Source: Acidobacteriota bacterium (GTDB lineage: Bacteria; Acidobacteriota; Vicinamibacteria; Vicinamibacterales; 2-12-FULL-66-21). Taken from it: a stretch of DNA of 47,584 bases. A model generated the notes under the pieces. That model saw nothing but the letters and a program-made list of their open reading frames with translations, did not search any database and was not told the origin of the DNA. Positions 34,902 to 45,344 of this stretch are shown one piece after another. The stretch spans positions 1 to 47,584 of the forward strand of contig QHWT01000081.1 in assembly GCA_003222675.1 (NCBI GenBank). The letters are read 5' to 3'. Position 1 is the stretch's first letter, and every line of letters begins with the position of its first letter. A program made the translations under genes and the position numbers.

Positions 34902-36474
34902 TCACATGCCCGACGGATACGTTTCGGGCAAATCGATCTCATCGTGCGCCCACTGTTCCAGCGGCTCGAGGGCGGAGGTCTCGTCGATGTGCAGGACCGC
35001 GTCGAACTGGTCCGGCAGCCTCGCGCGGAAGTAATGACTGAGACGCTCCGTCTCCGGGCGATAGATCACGCCGATCGCGCGTTCCAGGCGCGGCTCGCGC
35101 AACGCCTCCCGCATCGACGGCGCGCGCAGGAGCAGCAGGAAGCGTTCAAGGCCGACCTCGTGAAACAGGCGTTCGTGGCTTCCGGCGATGGACGGGCGAA
35201 CGCGTTTGCGCCGGGCGGGCTCGTCCCAGTTGGAGGCAGCGGTGACGGCGCCCGCATGCGTGGTGAACCCCACGAGAAATGCGTCCGGTCCGTACTTCTC
35301 GCGAACCAGCTGTCCGAGATTCAGCTCGCCGCCATCACCCATTTGTGTCGCGCGCGCATCGCCGAGATGCGAGTTGTGCGCCCAGACCACCGCCCGCGCC
35401 GTTCCCGACACCTGCCGGAGGTGCGCGAGCAGGGCCTCGAGCGTCTCCATCATGTGCGTATCGCGGAGGTTCCACGATTCGACGCGGCCGCCGAACATCG
35501 CGCGGTAGTACTCTTCGGCGTTGCGGACCAGTCGCGCGTTCTGCTCGGAACCTCCGCGATACGCACATGATGGAGACGCTCGAGGCCCTGCTCGCGCACC
35601 TCCGGCAGGTGTCGGGAACGGCGCGGGCGGTGGTCTGGGCGCACAACTCGCATCTCGGCGATGCGCGCGCGACACAAATGGGTGATGGCGGCGAGCTGAA
35701 TCTCGGACAGCTGGTTCGCGAGAAGTACGGACCGGACGCATTTCTCGTGGGGTTCACCACGCATGCGGGCGCCGTCACCGCTGCCTCCAACTGGGACGAG
35801 CCCGCCCGGCGCAAACGCGTTCGCCCGTCCCGCGCCGCGTATTCGGCCGCGCGTCGACGAAGATCCATCAGCTCCGCGACGACGTCGTTCTCGCACGACC
35901 TGGTGAGTCCGATGGTAGCGGCGTAGCCGTAGCCCTGCGTGTCCTCCCCGAAGTGTTCAAAGCACGAATAGCGATACCGCGCGCGCTCCGCCGCGATCGG
36001 ATCGACCTTGCGGAGATATGCCAGCACCGCCTCCATTGACGCGTGCATGCTGTACAGGTCCAGGCCGTAGAACCCCGCCTGTGACGGCGCCGCCTGGCTC
36101 GCATTGTGCGCGCGCAGCCATTCGACGAAGCTGACAACGTCGCGATTGCGCCACATCCATCGTGGAAAACGCGTGAAGTCGCCGAGCGCGCTCTCTGCGT
36201 CCCGTTCAGCCGCCGCGCGACGCACCCACCGGTTCACACGGTAGGCGTCCGGCCAGTCCGCTTCCACGGCGACCAGATTGAAACCTTTGCGGAGGACCAG
36301 CGCTTTGGTCAGCTCCGCGCGAATGTTATAGAAGTCGTGCGTGCCGTGCGTTGCTTCACCGATCAGCACGAGCCGCGAATCGCCGATGGCGTCCATGAGC
36401 GGCCCGAGACCATCAGGAGTGGGCTCGAACCAGAGCGCGTCGCGTCGAATGGCGTCAACAGCGCGATCGGCCAT
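34902..36474 (-). pseudogene. Erythromycin-esterase-family protein, broken by an inverted duplication
   Basis: The N-terminal part reads from the ATG at 36474: DSRLVLIGEATHGTHDFYNI carries the conserved GEATHGT motif, followed by NLVAVEADWPDAYRVNRWV and GFYGLDLYSMHASMEAVL. Family sequence stops at RRRAAEYAARDG near 35835. The C-terminal part resumes in another frame with EQNARLVRNAEEYYRAMFGG, then ARAVVWAHNSHLGDARATQM and LERFLLLLRAP, to a stop at 34902. Between them is a 284-bp inverted copy (35547-35830) of downstream coding sequence 35190-35473. About ten residues appear lost as well. Without this insert the protein would be about 430-440 residues, normal for the family. It is coupled (TGATG) to the phosphoribosyltransferase, a frequent partner. 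As written it cannot encode a full protein; an assembly chimera is possible. Confidence 0.85.
35190..35830. repeat. 284-bp inverted repeat with 73-bp spacer inside the esterase gene
   Basis: Left arm 35190-35473 and right arm 35547-35830 are reverse complements of each other and appear identical wherever I compared them; the same peptide (NLRDTHMMETLEALLAHL and on) is encoded by the left arm on the minus strand and by the right arm on the plus strand. The spacer 35474-35546 is normal esterase coding sequence. The outer junction has the short shared block GGACGGGCGA, compatible with template switching. Confidence 0.92.
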
Positions 36475-38466: not shown

Positions 38467-39249
38467 ATGCGCGATTCGTGGCAGAAGCGAATCGACCGCG
38501 CGTCGGAGCTGGCCGCACGAGACGAGGCGGTGAGACCGCTGCTCGACGCCTACGGGCGTCTGCTCGTCCTCCAGCGGGACTGCTACGCATCGTTGCACGC
38601 ACATTCAGCGCGGCTGTCTGGTGCCCTCGAACGCGATCTGGCGACGGTGAGGGCGTGCGTTCCCCGAATCCTCAACGAGATCGCCAGGACCGGCCCGCCG
38701 CGCCTCGCGGAACAAGCGCGGCAGATGATCGACGGCGGCGAGTCGGCCATCGATTCAATGCTTCTCATGGGATGGCGGACGCCGTCGGACGAGCATTTCT
38801 TCGCCAAAGCCGTCTTGCAATCCTACGCGAACTGCCTTGCGACCGATGGTCTACACCCGATCGATCGCGATCTGCCGCGCGCCGACAACGTGTGCCCCTT
38901 CTGCGGCGGCGCGCCGCAGGTGTCGATTCTCCATCACGCGGCGGACACCGATGGCGGCGGCCGCGAACTGCTCTGTGCCACGTGCTTGACCACGTGGCCA
39001 TTCCGTCGCCTGCTGTGCGCGCGATGCGGCGAAGAGGACGAGCGGCAGCTCGGATATTTCCACTCGCCCGCGTACGATCACCTGCGCGTCGACGCGTGCG
39101 ACACGTGCAAGCACTATTTGAAATCCGTCGATCTCACCCGGCTCGGCCGTGCCGTCCCCATCGTCGACGAGGTCGCGGGGGCGCCGCTCGATCTCTGGGC
39201 GCGCGAGCGCGGGTACGAGAAGATTGAACTGAACCTTCTCGGGCTTTGA
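38467..39249 (+). CDS. fdhE: Formate dehydrogenase accessory protein FdhE
   Basis: Cytosolic maturation factor of 260 residues, needed in other bacteria to assemble membrane-bound formate dehydrogenases. The C-terminal half has four CxxC pairs, CPFC, CATC, CARC and CDTC, in the order expected for the rubredoxin-like metal-binding domains of FdhE. They lie in DNVCPFCGGAPQVSILHH, LLCATCLTTWPFRRLLCARC and VDACDTCKHYLKSVDLTR; the LKSVDLT and APLDLWARERGY endings are also family-typical. The N-terminal half is helical. It stands directly before the catalytic subunit gene, with a 58-bp gap that contains a strong Shine-Dalgarno for the latter. Confidence 0.95.
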   Translation: MRDSWQKRIDRASELAARDEAVRPLLDAYGRLLVLQRDCYASLHAHSARLSGALERDLATVRACVPRILNEIARTGPPRLAEQARQMIDGGESAIDSMLLMGWRTPSDEHFFAKAVLQSYANCLATDGLHPIDRDLPRADNVCPFCGGAPQVSILHHAADTDGGGRELLCATCLTTWPFRRLLCARCGEEDERQLGYFHSPAYDHLRVDACDTCKHYLKSVDLTRLGRAVPIVDEVAGAPLDLWARERGYEKIELNLLGL

Positions 39250-39307
39250 CGAGACGCTTTGTGGTATGTTGATCGAAGCCCTTGGTCGTCGTGTCTCGGA
39301 GGAGCAG

Positions 39308-42300
39308 ATGGCGATCTCCCGGCGCACGTTCCTGCAGCGTTCTCTCGCGGGTGGCGCGGCGATCACAGCGTTCGGATTCGACGTCACACCCATTTACGCT
39401 CAGGCCAAGTCCCTCAAGATTTCGCGCACGACGGAAACCCGCAGCACCTGCCCCTACTGTTCAGTCAGTTGCGGCATCATCATCCACACGCTTGGCGACA
39501 AGGCCAAGAACGCGATCCCGCAGGTCGTGCACGTTGAAGGCGATCCCGATCATCCCATCAACCGCGGCACGTTGTGTCCCAAGGGCGCCTCGCTCGAACA
39601 GGACATCCTGAACGAGCGCCGCCTGCTGAACCCGCAGGTGCGCCGTCCGGGCGCGGATCGCTGGGAAGACATCGGCTGGGACCAGGCGATCGACGAGATC
39701 GGCCGCTGGGTGAAGAAGACGCGCGACGCGACGTTCGTGGAGAAGGATCCGCGCGGACGCACCGTCAATCGCTGTGAAGGCCTCGCCTGGAACGGCGGCT
39801 GCACCGATACGAACGAATTCAATTATCTCGTCGTCAAGACGATGCGCAGCCTGGGGGTCTGCTACCTGGAAAACCAGGCCCGGGTTTGACACGGGCCAAC
39901 GGTCTCCAGTTTGGGGCCCACATTCGGACGCGGCGCGATGACGAACGGGTGGATCGACATCAAGAACACCGACATGATGTTGATCATGGGTGGCAATCCG
40001 GCCGAGAACCACCCGTGCGGCTTCAAGTGGCCGATTGAAGCCAAGCTCCATCGCAATGCGAAGATGATCGTCGTCGACCCGCGCTTCACGCGGACGGCGG
40101 CGAATGCCGACCTGTTCCTGCAGATTCGCGCCGGCAGCGACATCGCGTTCCTTGGCGGCCTGATCAACTACGCGATCGCGCAGAATCGGATCGCGCACGA
40201 CTATCTCGTCAACTACACGAACGCGTCCTTCATCGTTCAGGAAGGATTCAAGCTGCCCGAGGACGGTTTGTACTCCGGCTTCGATCCGTCCACGCAGATT
40301 TACAACAAGTCGACGTGGAACTACGAGGCGGGCGGCCGCGTCAGCGCCGCCCCGGTTGCGGCGGCAGGCGATACCGCGAAAGGCGGTGGAGGTACTTCCC
40401 AGGCCGACGCGCCAGCACCGTCAGGCGGCGCACCACCTTCGGCGAAATCATCGCAGCCCCGGACGGGTCTTGGATACGCGGCGCAGGGACCGGGCGGCGC
40501 GAAAGCGGGTGCCGGCGGATCGCACCCCGGCGGTCAGGCAGCCGCAGCCGGCGCGCCACCGTCGTTGCCTCCCAACGTCGCGTACGATCCATCACTCCAA
40601 CATCCACGGTGCGTCTTTCAACTCTTGAAGCAGCAGTACTCGCGCTACACGCCGGAGATGGTGGAGCGGATCACCGGGATTCCGAAAGACCAGTTCCTGA
40701 AAGCCGCCGATCTGTTCACGTCGGTCCGCATCAACGGCGACATGAAGAAGGTGTCGACGATCATCTACGCCGTGGGCTGGACGCAGCACACCTTCGGCAC
40801 GCAGATCATCCGCACGGCGGCGATGCTGCAGCTCCTGCTGGGCAACGTCGGGCGTGCGGGCGGCGGGGTCAACGCCCTGCGTGGACATTCGAACATCCAG
40901 GGGGCGACGGATCTGGCGGGCGTCTTCGACATCCTGCCCGGATACCTGAAGATGCCGAATCCCGATGACGGCGATTTCGCGACGTACGTGAAACGAATCA
41001 CGCCAACGGCATCGAACCCCGCCGAGTGGCAGTCGTACAACTACTGGTCGAACACGTCCAAGTTCGCCGTCTCGTTCCTCAAGGCGATGTACGGCGACGC
41101 CGCGAAAAAGGAAAACGACTGGGCCTTCAGCTACTTGCCGAAGATCGATCGCAACTACGCGTGGGCGCAGATCTGGGACGACATGTATGCGGGCAGAATC
41201 AAGGGGCTGCTCGCCTTCGGGATGAACGGCGTCCAGATCGGGCCCAACTCGCGGAAGAACATCGACGCGCTGAAGAAGGCGGACTGGCTCGTCGTCGGCG
41301 AGATCTATCCGGACGAGACGAGCGAGTTCTGGCGCGCACCGGGCACCAGCGCGGACGAGATGAAGAAGATCCAGACGACGGTCTACCGTCTCCCGTGCGC
41401 GGGCTTCGCCGAGAAGGACGGGACGTTCGTCAATTCCGCGCGCTGGCTGCAGTGGAAGAACGTCGCGGTACCGCCGCCAGGAGACGCTCGGCTGGACCAG
41501 GACATACTGGCCCAGATCTTCTTGAAGGTGCGCGAGCTCTATCAGAAGGAAGGCGGCAAATTCCCCGATCCGATCCTCAACGTGCGCTGGCCGTACACGC
41601 AGCCGGATCACCCGGCACTCGCGGAAGTGGCTCGAGAGATCAATGGTCAGGCGCTCGCAGAAATTACGGATCCAACCGGACAGGGCGCGCCGTCCATCAA
41701 GGCGGGGCAGCAAATCCCCGGGTTTGCGTGGCTCAAAGACGACGGCACGACACTCTGCGGCAACTGGTTGTACAGCGGATCCTGGACCGAAGCGGGCAAT
41801 CAGATGGCGAGGCGCGGCACCGACGATCCGTCGGGCCTCGGCATCTACCCGAACTGGGCATGGTCGTGGCCCGCGAACCGGCGCGTTATGTACAACCGGG
41901 CCTCGTGCGATCCATCCGGGAAGCCCTGGGACGCGACGCGGCGGCAGATCTGGTGGAACGAAGGCTCCGGTAAATGGGTCGGCAACGACGTGCCCGACTT
42001 CAAGGTGGACTCGAAGCCCTCGGATCACATGGGGCCGTTCATCATGAATCCGGAAGGGGTCGGCCGGCTGTTCGCGCCGCTCTCCGCGTTCGCAGAAGGA
42101 CCGTTCCCCGAACATTACGAGCCAATCGAGAGTCCGATTACGAACCCGCTCCATCCCGCGCAATCGAACAACCCGGTCGTGAGGAAAATGAAATCGCCGC
42201 TCGACAAATATGGTGAACCGGCCGGCGGGTTCAACATCGTCTGCACGACCTACCGGCTGACCGAGCACTATCACTACTGGACGAAGAACAATCCGATGAA

Positions 42301-42631
42301 CGTGCAGCTCGTGCCGGAGCCATTCGTCGAGATCCCGGTGGAGCTCGCCGACGACATGGGTCTCAAGGGAGGCGAGCGCATCAAGGTGACGAGCGCGCGC
42401 GCGTCCTATGTGGCAAAGGCAATGGTGACGCGACGCATCAAGCCGATGATGATCGACGGCAAGAAGACGTATCAGATCGGCATCCCGATTCACTGGGGCT
42501 ATCGCGGGATCGCCGAAGACGCCGGCCGCACGTCGCTCGATTCGGCGAACCTGCTGTCGCCGACGGTGATCGACCCGAACGCATACACGCCGGAGTTCAA
42601 GGGGTTCCTGGTCAAGTTAGAGAAGGCCTAA
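39308..42631 (+). CDS. fdnG: Selenocysteine-containing formate dehydrogenase catalytic subunit (FdnG/FdoG type)
   Basis: Periplasm-facing molybdenum or tungsten bis-MGD enzyme that oxidises formate, 1107 residues. The start ATG at 39308 follows GGAGGAG. The Tat signal is SRRTFLQRSLAGGAAITAFG. A [4Fe-4S] site is seen as CPYCSVSC with CPKGA further on. An in-frame TGA at 39887-39889 (residue 194) sits in ENQARV-Sec-HGPTVSSLGPTFGRGAMTN, the family's conserved selenocysteine context, and the same frame continues for 2.7 kb, so it is read as Sec. The rest shows typical FdnG stretches (GGNPAENHPCGFKWPIEAKL, NVGRAGGGVNALRGHSNIQG). A Pro/Ala/Gly-rich insertion of about 85 residues (around 342-428) is not usual. 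Selenium-insertion genes are not in the window. Confidence 0.95.
39887..39925 (+). promoter_or_regulatory. UGA selenocysteine codon and candidate bacterial SECIS hairpin
   Basis: The TGA at 39887-39889 is followed directly by sequence able to fold. One pairing joins GGTCTC (39901-39906) with GGGGCC through G-U pairs, giving a hexaloop about 18 nt after the UGA, the normal bacterial SECIS distance. Another pairs CACGGGCCAAC with GTTTGGGGCCC and exposes GGTCT in the loop. E. coli fdn/fdh SECIS elements also present GGUCU-like loops. The exact fold needs calculation. Confidence 0.7.
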
Positions 42632-42634
42632 CCA

Positions 42635-43498
42635 ATGCCCAGCGGGACATTGCAGATCAAAGCGATATCCGCGCACTCGGGTCCGATCCCCGGGCAGGGC
42701 GTGCAGCGCGAAGAGGACGTCTGCAAGTACATCGACGTCACCACGTGCATCGGATGTAAGGCGTGCGAAGTCGCATGTGTCGAGTGGAACGACATGCCGT
42801 TCCAGCAGACCACGTTCGACAACACCTACCAGACGATGCCGGCGACGGCGTGGAACTACTGGAACCTGATCAAGTTCAACGAGCACCAGCGCGATGACGG
42901 GTCCTTGATGTGGCTGATGCGCAAGGACCAGTGTATGCACTGCGAGGATCCCGGCTGCCTGCGCGCGTGTCCCGCGGACGGCGCGATCGTGCAGTACACG
43001 AACGGCATCGTTGATTTTCAGCAGGAAAACTGCATCGGCTGTCAGTACTGCGTGTCAGGGTGCCCGTTCGACATTCCAAAGTTCAATAGTTCGACGAAGA
43101 AGGTTTATAAGTGCACGTTGTGCTCCGACCGCGTCGGTCAGGGGCTCGAGCCCGCGTGCATCAAGGCGTGCCCCACGGGCTGTTTGAAGTTCGGGACCAA
43201 GACAGACATGCGCGCGCTCGCGGATGCGCGGGCGCAGCAGTTACGCGAGCATTCGGGATTTGCCAATGCCGGCGTCTACGATCCGCCGTCAGTTGGCGGC
43301 ACGCACGTCATCTATGTGCTGCACGACGCCACGAAACCGGAGCAGTACGGCGGATTGCCTGCCAATCCAGTCATTCCGCCGACTTACACGATCTGGAAGC
43401 GCGCGGCGAAGCCCATCGGATTGCTGCTGGCGTTGTTGGCCGCGCCCGTCGCATTCTTCCATTACGTCATGGAAGGGCCGAAGGAACCGGCACCATGA
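42635..43498 (+). CDS. fdnH: Formate dehydrogenase iron-sulfur subunit (FdnH/FdoH type)
   Basis: Electron-transfer subunit of 287 residues that carries four [4Fe-4S] clusters from the catalytic subunit to the cytochrome. Cysteine groups are visible in order: CIGCKACEVAC, CMHCEDPGCLRAC, CIGCQYCVSGCPFDIPKF, and CTLCSDRVGQGLEPACIKAC. The C-terminus has one membrane helix (PIGLLLALLAAPVAFFHYVM) with a short tail, as in E. coli FdnH, which anchors it to the membrane. It starts 4 bp after the fdnG stop and its own stop overlaps the next ATG, so the three subunits are co-translated. No separate signal peptide is seen, in keeping with export together with the Tat-targeted partner. Confidence 0.96.
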   Translation: MPSGTLQIKAISAHSGPIPGQGVQREEDVCKYIDVTTCIGCKACEVACVEWNDMPFQQTTFDNTYQTMPATAWNYWNLIKFNEHQRDDGSLMWLMRKDQCMHCEDPGCLRACPADGAIVQYTNGIVDFQQENCIGCQYCVSGCPFDIPKFNSSTKKVYKCTLCSDRVGQGLEPACIKACPTGCLKFGTKTDMRALADARAQQLREHSGFANAGVYDPPSVGGTHVIYVLHDATKPEQYGGLPANPVIPPTYTIWKRAAKPIGLLLALLAAPVAFFHYVMEGPKEPAP

Positions 43499-44262
43499 AT
43501 GGCGCGATCGAACGGTTCGACGATCGCGCGCGACGGCGCGTCGGGGCCTACGGGCGCACGATGGTGCGCGAGAACGAGCTGGTGCGGCATCCCGTCTATA
43601 CGCGCGTGCTCCACTGGAGCGTCGCGATCTTTTTCATTCTGGCCCTCCTCTCCGGGTTCGCGATTTACAGTCCGTGGCTCTATCGCGCGCTGACGCCGCT
43701 CTTCGGCGGCGGGCCGACGACACGCCTGCTGCATCCGTGGTTCAGCCTCGGTTTCGTCATCTTCTTCGCGTTCCAGATCCTGAACTGGCTGGAGCCGATG
43801 ACGTGGACGTCCGACGACCGTCGATGGATGAAGCAGGTGAAAAGCTATGTGACCAACAAAGAGCCCGTCGAGCCCGAGTACGTGGACTTCTTCAACGGGG
43901 GACAGAAGCTTTACTTCTGGGCGATCGTGGCGAGCGCGGTCGTGTTCCTGCTCTCTGGCTTTCCGATGTGGTTCCCGAAGACCTTCGGCCGGATCACAGT
44001 AGACATCGGCTACGTGCTGCACGACATCGCCGCGCTGGTGATGCTGGTCGGCTTCATCGTTCACCTCTACGAAGGAACGGGCGCGCAGCCCGGCACGTTC
44101 CAGGCGATGACGCGCGGCACGGTCGAGCGCCGCTGGGCATGGACCCACCATCCGGCGTGGTACCGGCGCGCGACGGGGCGCGATCCGCGCACCGATTACG
44201 AGCAGGCGCGGCAGCGCAGTAGTCGCCCTCCGGACCCAACCGCGCGGACAGATCTGAAATGA
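43495..44262 (+). CDS. fdnI: Formate dehydrogenase cytochrome b subunit (FdnI/FdoI type)
   Basis: Membrane di-heme cytochrome b556 subunit of 255 residues that passes electrons from formate to quinone. Four hydrophobic segments are visible: VLHWSVAIFFILALLSGFAI, HPWFSLGFVIFFAFQILNWL, LYFWAIVASAVVFLLSGFPM and VLHDIAALVMLVGFIVHLYEG. Candidate heme histidines lie in the first, second and fourth (HPVYTRVLHW, LLHPWF, LHDIAALV, VHLYEG). The motif VTNKEPVEPEYVDFFNGGQKLYFW between segments 2 and 3 is characteristic. The hydrophilic tail is longer and Arg/Pro-rich. The start overlaps the fdnH stop (ATGA) and the stop overlaps the porin-like gene. Confidence 0.95.
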   Translation: MNGAIERFDDRARRRVGAYGRTMVRENELVRHPVYTRVLHWSVAIFFILALLSGFAIYSPWLYRALTPLFGGGPTTRLLHPWFSLGFVIFFAFQILNWLEPMTWTSDDRRWMKQVKSYVTNKEPVEPEYVDFFNGGQKLYFWAIVASAVVFLLSGFPMWFPKTFGRITVDIGYVLHDIAALVMLVGFIVHLYEGTGAQPGTFQAMTRGTVERRWAWTHHPAWYRRATGRDPRTDYEQARQRSSRPPDPTARTDLK

Positions 44263-45344
44263 AAAAAGCCTATAGCGTATGCGGCATCGCCGCGCTGGCG
44301 ATGGGAGTCCTGGTCGTGTCTGCGTCCATCGCGCGTGCGCAGGTGCTGATCAAGGTGAACGACGATGTGAATTTCAAGCTGGGGGTGCTCGGGCAGTTCC
44401 AGGTCGACACGATCAAGGACAACGGCACCGACGTTACCGCCAGCAACCTCTTCGTGCGGCGACTGCGACTGCTTTTCGGCGGGCAGGTCGCGAAGAGCGT
44501 GACCTTCTTCGTCGAGACCGACACACCAAACCTCGGGAAGACGCTCGCTACCGGCAAGAACATCACCCCTGCCACGATCATCCAGGACGCGTACGGCGAG
44601 TTCAAGCCCTCGAACGGCTTTTCTGTCGACGCCGGCCTGATGTTCGTGCCGTTCTCACGCAACAGCATCCAGAGCGCGGCGACGCTTCTGCCGATCGACT
44701 ACGGTGCGTACACGTTCAGCCAGAGCGCGCCGACCCAATCCTCCACGGGCCGCGACACGGGCTTCCAGGCCAAGGGGAACTTCGTCAAGAACCGGCTCGA
44801 GTACCGGATTGGCGCATTCCAGGGACTCCGCAATGCGCGCTCGAACAACGCGCTGCGCTACGCCGGCCGCCTGCAATACAACGTGCTGGATCCGGAGACA
44901 GGCTTCTTCTACGCCGGCACCTATGTCGGCGCGAAGAAGATCCTTGCGATCGGCGCAGCGTTCGACACGCAGAGTCACTATCACGCGTATGACGCCGACG
45001 TTTTCACCGAATATCCGTTTGGACCGGGTGCCTTTAACGGTCAGCTCGATCTCACGCACTTCGACGGCGACGTGACGCTCGCGACGCTGCCGAAGCAGAA
45101 CGATGTGCTCCTGGAGATCGGGTATCTGGTGCGCGCAATCAAGGTCACGCCCGTGCTGCAGTTCGTGCACCGCGATGTGGTCAATCTCACGGCAACACCG
45201 GACGAGACGCGGACGTCCATCGGCGCAAACTACTGGTGGGCGGCGCACAACGCCAGCATCAAGGCGGCCTACGTCCACATCGACCCCAAGGGCGGTGCGG
45301 CGCAGCACGAGTTCACCATCCAGCTCCAGCTCTTTTACTACTGA
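44259..45344 (+). CDS. Porin-like outer-membrane beta-barrel protein
   Basis: Exported protein of 361 residues. The signal peptide MKKAYSVCGIAALAMGVLVVSASIARAQ is clear, with cleavage expected after ARA. The mature protein consists of alternating polar/hydrophobic strands (ASNLFVRRLRLLFGGQVAKS, ITPATIIQDAYGEFKPSNGF, FVKNRLEYRIGAFQGL) and ends in an aromatic residue, QLQLFYY, as needed for outer-membrane assembly. The pattern resembles phosphate-selective porins O and P, but the substrate cannot be inferred. Its ATG overlaps the stop of the cytochrome b gene (ATGA), an unusual linkage that suggests it serves the formate dehydrogenase, perhaps by admitting formate or another small anion. Confidence 0.85.
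   Translation: MKKAYSVCGIAALAMGVLVVSASIARAQVLIKVNDDVNFKLGVLGQFQVDTIKDNGTDVTASNLFVRRLRLLFGGQVAKSVTFFVETDTPNLGKTLATGKNITPATIIQDAYGEFKPSNGFSVDAGLMFVPFSRNSIQSAATLLPIDYGAYTFSQSAPTQSSTGRDTGFQAKGNFVKNRLEYRIGAFQGLRNARSNNALRYAGRLQYNVLDPETGFFYAGTYVGAKKILAIGAAFDTQSHYHAYDADVFTEYPFGPGAFNGQLDLTHFDGDVTLATLPKQNDVLLEIGYLVRAIKVTPVLQFVHRDVVNLTATPDETRTSIGANYWWAAHNASIKAAYVHIDPKGGAAQHEFTIQLQLFYY

Follow-up and report, generated by a model that had tools for sequence, protein, structure and literature searches.

In-frame UGA and its SECIS hairpin in an acidobacterial formate dehydrogenase-N gene: predicted selenocysteine decoding and two possible pairing registers

In the window, by which we mean the whole stretch of DNA that was analysed (47,584 nucleotides of contig QHWT01000081.1, assembly GCA_003222675.1), one long gene carries a TGA within its reading frame, and the locus raises the question of whether this codon ends the gene, is read as an ordinary amino acid or is decoded as selenocysteine (Sec), and which RNA structure would direct the latter. 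The gene runs in a single frame from ATG 39308, with GGAGGAG upstream, to TAA 42629-42631, and its sole in-frame TGA is located at 39887-39889 (codon 194) in the context ENQARV-U-HGPTVSS. An earlier note had predicted that a gene-finder would split the gene at this codon and that the frame continues unchanged across it; indeed, Table-11 ORF calling cut the gene in two (39266-39889 and 39911-42631), and 39308-42631 was open apart from the one TGA. The 913 codons 3' of the TGA were open and conserved. The features of the gene are as follows.

39308-42631, plus strand: fdnG-type gene for the alpha subunit of formate dehydrogenase-N (FDH-N), 1107 aa including one predicted Sec (TIGR01553; 1kqf; read-through translation)
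39887-39889, plus strand: TGA, predicted Sec, residue 194 (aligned with X of 1kqf in ARVXHGPTV; TGA in 104/104 covered loci)
39308-39403, plus strand: likely twin-arginine signal segment (MAISRRTFLQ...YAQA; read from the translation)

The SRRxFL of the last segment we take to be the twin-arginine motif. When scored with Sec entered as Cys, the alpha subunit reached 1339 bits against TIGR01553 (FDH-N alpha; cut-off 814.2), and its best PDB match was E. coli FdnG (1kqf). The context ARV-Sec-HGPTV, previously described as that of FdnG/FdoG, aligned with the modified residue of 1kqf. UHGP at residue 194 fits the motif UHxP, tabulated in PMC13188914, and its Sec falls on the position of the metal ligand. 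Genes for the beta and gamma subunits, both above their model cut-offs, follow downstream in the order GHI, and an FdhE-like gene, whose product stays under the curated cut-offs of both FdhE models, lies directly upstream.

42635-43498, plus strand: FdnH, beta (iron-sulfur) subunit with a C-terminal transmembrane anchor (TIGR01582, 351.2 bits, cut-off 334.7; Pfam Form-deh_trans)
43489-44262, plus strand: FdnI, cytochrome b subunit, start codon approximate (TIGR01583, 149.7 bits, cut-off 115.85)
38467-39249, plus strand: FdhE-like accessory protein (TIGR01562, 64.9 bits against 187.65; Pfam FdhE_C and FdhE_central above cut-off)

From these comparisons and the evidence below we conclude that 39308-42631 almost certainly encodes FDH-N alpha, in the gene order GHI, with UGA codon 194 decoded as Sec. 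The consequence for annotation is that standard ORF calling cuts a key respiratory enzyme in two.

TGA was present in all 104 loci that covered codon 194, and none of them had a Cys codon at the Sec position, so that the Cys alternative which the earlier note gave for FdnG-type enzymes had no example among them; six of the 110 loci collected (30 + 80, including the window, L023, and the duplicate pair L024/L053) did not cover it, and the many matches of about 30% identity to other molybdopterin enzymes were kept outside the 110-locus count. We take the 80-locus set to consist of Acidobacteria or groups belonging to that phylum; L053 (Acidobacteria bacterium isolate gp6 AA54) was identical in the fdnG-type gene to G091, a genome of the same order as that of the window, and a search of plasmid proteins returned relatives solely under 60% identity. 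Were the TGA a true stop, created by a nonsense mutation or left in a pseudogene, a 193-residue fragment would result. The Table-11 split, and an isolated RNA fold that does not favour the SECIS (below), would agree with such a stop, but TGA in 104/104 loci, 913 open and conserved codons downstream, a complete Sec machinery in the genome and synonymous constraint on the hairpin all speak against it, and we regard it as extremely improbable.

The decoding machinery was searched in the genome's own assembly (7.16 Mb, 152 contigs, 99.9% complete, 3.9% contamination), as the earlier note had proposed in predicting selA, selB, selC and selD elsewhere in the genome, and all four were found, including the tRNA-Sec and SelB whose absence would have made the codon a real stop. 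We detected one tRNA-Sec with anticodon UCA (RF01852, 61.4 bits, gathering 47), one SelB match above cut-off with winged-helix domains (335 bits, cut-off 242), one SelA (539 bits, cut-off 268) and one SelD (344 bits, cut-off 125). These genes were spread over four contigs of the draft assembly, none of them the window's, which together with the 3.9% contamination counts against the reading as Sec. A second tRNA-Sec match above cut-off (50 bits) was discarded, being a tRNA-Ser by ARAGORN. SelD appears to be a Sec protein itself, with an in-frame TGA in ACAGUASKLAAG (residue 21 of P0002, L020 minus strand, contig C36) and a stable calculated hairpin 3' of that TGA (RNAfold). The genome also holds a second Sec-type FDH on contig C98 (L133 5860), about 42% identical and with its own in-frame TGA (NF041513, 1569 bits, cut-off 1400). 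This second FDH gene is followed by an FdnH-like gene and has, close to the site of the insert described below, a His/Gly-rich insert that is shorter; with a limit of E 0.5, Rfam gave no SECIS for selD or for this paralogue. If TGA were instead read as another residue, such as Trp under an altered code, a lone in-frame TGA would look identical, but the genome has a tRNA-Sec with UCA, the one tRNA-Trp among eight scanned loci has CCA, the TGA falls on the Sec position of 1kqf and a SECIS match lies behind it, so that we give hardly any credence to an altered code.

Under decoding as Sec, we propose that SelA and SelD would make Sec-tRNA-Sec(UCA), which SelB would carry while binding the hairpin that starts 11 nt after UGA, and, judging from the family, the ribosome would insert Sec at UGA rather than terminate. 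By the same family analogy, Sec would ligate the Mo or W of the bis-MGD cofactor, formate would be oxidised in the periplasm, and electrons would pass from FdnH to the FdnI cytochrome b and on to the quinone pool.

The neighbouring genes were compared in 81 related loci (the 80 plus L139, some of them cut short, with L053 and L139 representing one genome). Relatives of FdnH were present in 79/81, of FdnI in 71/81 and of FdhE in 69/81, the upstream HEAT protein in 0/81 and the downstream porin in 2/81. The porin-like gene (44259-45344) sits directly after fdnI and matched ExtI at 105.9 bits (cut-off 150), with Pfam Porin_O_P above cut-off; it was rejected as a component of the system, as its two loci (L053 and L139) are both from one genome. 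Elsewhere in the window, 35183-35473 and 35547-35837 form a 291-nt inverted repeat (99% complementary, 73-nt spacer) within a minus-strand gene of the erythromycin-esterase family, the halves of which lie in different ORFs, and this repeat may either have arisen in assembly or be a genuine inverted duplication. The alpha subunit itself carries an insert.

40325-40585, plus strand: Gly/Ala/Pro-rich insert of 87 aa, flanked by residues 339 and 427 (alignment with E. coli FdnG and the clade)

Between the same flanking residues, the insert length ranged from 21 to 147 (median 46.5, 78 rows), with a composition pooled over the 78 rows of A 20%, G 17% and P 15%. The structure prediction of the alpha subunit (mean pLDDT 47, 20 sequences) was too poor to place it.

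We then turn to the RNA that would direct Sec insertion, for which the following features apply, with the U of UGA counted as position 1.

39884-39942, plus strand: predicted SECIS element, Rfam SECIS_3 (RF01989), 64.6 bits (gathering 63), with a synonymous conservation peak at codons 193-203
39901-39918, plus strand: apical hairpin GGUCUCCAGUUUGGGGCC, C/G class, with every standard pair formed when U17 is bulged
39903, 39909 and 39910, plus strand: U17, G23 and U24

The earlier note had placed a hairpin after the codon and suggested folding it and comparing it with bacterial SECIS models; the model comparison bore this out, while folding of 39884-39942 alone was unconvincing. SECIS_3 matched over its full length (59/59 positions, E 6.5e-13 for the window), with a margin of only 1.6 bits above gathering, and protein conservation may contribute part of the score. 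The isolated 59-nt RNA folded no better than shuffles (z +1.0). In a 44-nt fold, the SECIS register had -7.4 kcal/mol versus -11.1 for a GGGCC/GGCCC hairpin (MFE), in which GGGCC at positions 7-11 pairs with a downstream GGCCC and wins the isolated folding; during UGA decoding, the ribosome would cover this stretch. When nt 1-9 were omitted, pair 20-28 reached a probability of 0.79 and pair 18-30 (U17 bulged) 0.51 versus 0.47 for 18-29, with an unbulged six-pair stem as the MFE. Thermodynamic folding was rejected as proof of a SECIS, since it did not separate the element from shuffles. According to PMC13188914, the bSECIS model has a loop of 3-9 nt, an upper stem of 4-16 bp, G in the first two loop positions, a distance of 16-37 nt from UGA and an MFE of at most -7.5 kcal/mol. 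The window element has the loop GUU with G first, 5 + 2 bp and 19 nt between UGA and loop; as to the energy limit of -7.5, its SECIS register has -7.4, and the MFE of -11.1 belongs to a different structure.

Because the SECIS_3 margin is 1.6 bits and the isolated fold is no better than shuffles, we gave comparative evidence more weight than folding. The conservation set required at least 69% identity, a covered SECIS and at least 900 aligned residues, which left 79 rows (78 distinct) and dropped 31 of the 110 loci; codon identity was scored against the expectation from each gene's own codon usage in 472 conserved-residue columns. Codons 201, 202, 199 and 198 took ranks 1-4 of the 472 for excess synonymous conservation (AGT in 76/76 Ser, TTG in 76/78, GTC in 78/78 and ACG in 78/78, respectively), and the best run of ten scored columns was codons 193-203; elsewhere in the gene, AGT makes up 6% of Ser codons and TTG 16% of Leu codons. 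The constraint was not at every codon, codon 192 ranking 468th and codon 206 407th. U17, G23 and U24 were present in 78/78 rows; U24 is a third base, yet it was U throughout (AGT 76, GGT 2). These codon comparisons show that a constraint at the RNA level acts on the hairpin. We also observed that the codon before UGA (39884-39886), which the Rfam model leaves unpaired, was GTT in 75/78 rows, whereas GTT accounts for 12.5% of the Val codons in the remainder of the gene.

Within the hairpin, Ser200 and Gly203 had third bases (positions 21 and 30) that fell into two coupled classes, A/A in 45 and C/G in 33 of the 78 rows with no mixed row (A/A 46, C/G 35, mixed 0 in a wider set of 81 rows that includes the duplicate pair). 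We compared two registers, a bulged one as in SECIS_3 and E. coli (18-30, 19-29, 20-28, 21-27, 22-26) and an unbulged one (17-30, 18-29, 19-28, 20-27, 21-26). The C/G rows had 165/165 standard pairs in the U17-bulged register and 132/165 in the unbulged, and the A/A rows had 225/225 unbulged and 135/225 bulged, U17 pairing with A30 in the 45 A/A homologues. The calculated energies were -8.5 kcal/mol unbulged and +2.4 bulged for the A/A 18-mer, -6.0 bulged versus -6.3 for an unbulged six-pair stem for the C/G 18-mer, which do not decide its register, and -7.9 and -6.9 kcal/mol for the two mixed versions, both unbulged folds. Since energies leave C/G undecided and the mixed versions fold too, the evidence is the coupling rather than the energy. 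GC content was rejected as the cause of the classes (mean GC3 0.73 vs 0.75).

When 88,410 pairings of bimorphic third-base columns were compared, Ser200-Gly203 ranked first (phi 1.0); second and third came pairs that involve codon 204 (0.66), and the best pair elsewhere reached 0.60. With the SECIS and the insert left out, the gene tree showed at least 7 switches of class, 6 of these forced by well-supported branches and always at both sites, and independent pairs were coupled in 6/6 cases (p 0.031). In the order of G198, the element was present in 77 of 397 genomes, with 79 matches (51 A/A, 28 C/G, 0 mixed); this sample is only partly independent, because 12/30 fetched loci repeat the 80-locus set. 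When 396 genomes of the phylum were searched by pattern, four matches came up: the window and three others, those three all A/A.

We suggest tentatively, at somewhat under an even chance, that this acidobacterial FDH-N clade has two SECIS registers, exchanged by repeated coupled synonymous switches and both read by one SelB, and that bacterial Sec insertion does not everywhere require a bulged U17. The main rival to this reading is that a very short tract was recombined, or that a mutational quirk rather than selection between registers coupled Ser200 with Gly203. The two sites are merely 9 nt apart, the classes cluster on the tree, class is associated with the third base of Pro204 too (V 0.75) and with Leu187 (0.54, the maximum for any other column in codons 170-231), and the mixed versions are energetically allowed beside the -8.5 of A/A and the -6.3 of C/G, all of which a short tract would accommodate. 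It would accommodate less readily that at codons 205 and 197 the association is down to 0.39 and 0.37, respectively (0.45 at codon 196; codons 198 and 199 invariant), that the coupling is the highest of all pairs and recurs on at least six supported branches, that the standard pairs of each class are complete in exactly one register, and that TCA occurs in 45/78 rows against 7% of Ser codons elsewhere. As judged from these columns, there is a background of shared ancestry around the class sites, yet no other column comes near 1. We consider recombination or a quirk less likely than the two-register reading, which is itself tempered by two observations: the mixed combinations are calculated to fold as well, and the window element divides its pairing probability between the registers.

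According to PMC8659212, the pairing of prokaryotic SECIS elements must hold U17 in a bulge, and mutation of U17 or G23 abolishes UGA readthrough. In the C98 paralogue of the window's own genome, U17 can join A31 in an uninterrupted stem that is also the MFE fold of its 44 nt, although shorter stretches fold differently. Moreover, genome G540 (99% complete, 1% contamination) appears to carry one FDH gene of each class (L174 and L175; 185/228 aligned residues identical) and one SelB above cut-off, although a copy may be a contaminant, since the C/G copy is truncated by the end of a 3.1-kb contig. Given elements with a paired U17 beside one SelB above cut-off, the bulge called essential may be dispensable here, and we infer that acidobacterial SelB would either tolerate a paired U17 or open the U17 pair upon binding. 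We know of no test of SECIS recognition in Acidobacteriota. If the two-register reading is true, the clade offers a natural, replicated test of SelB recognition, with closely related elements differing at two silent positions.

Two registers, or SECIS registers in Acidobacteriota, were not found in the literature searched, which is a weak negative. In previous studies, FdhA, the FDH alpha subunit with Sec, is described as having the widest distribution of any bacterial selenoprotein (PMC13188914; PMC1794560), PMC1794560 naming FdhA and SelD, and three known selenoprotein genes are reported for Occallatibacter riparius (PMC12013277), so that the phylum of the window gene already has published selenoproteins. 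With Sec-FDH widespread and acidobacterial selenoproteins in print, the window gene is therefore an ordinary bacterial selenoprotein, as far as its predicted decoding goes. It shares with E. coli FdnGHI and FdoGHI (1kqf) the Sec position, the alpha-beta-gamma order and the families, and differs in the FdhE-like gene directly upstream and in the 87-aa insert after residue 339, which E. coli FdnG lacks almost entirely. In L144, the E. coli gene annotated fdnG (beside fdoH) likewise carries TGA with a hairpin behind it, and the calculated fold of that hairpin leaves U17 bulged. Compared with SECIS_3 and the bSECIS model as given in PMC13188914, the window element matches over the full length and its G-first 3-nt loop and 19-nt spacing fit, whereas the stability of its SECIS register is borderline and 45/78 homologues pair fully only without a bulged U17.
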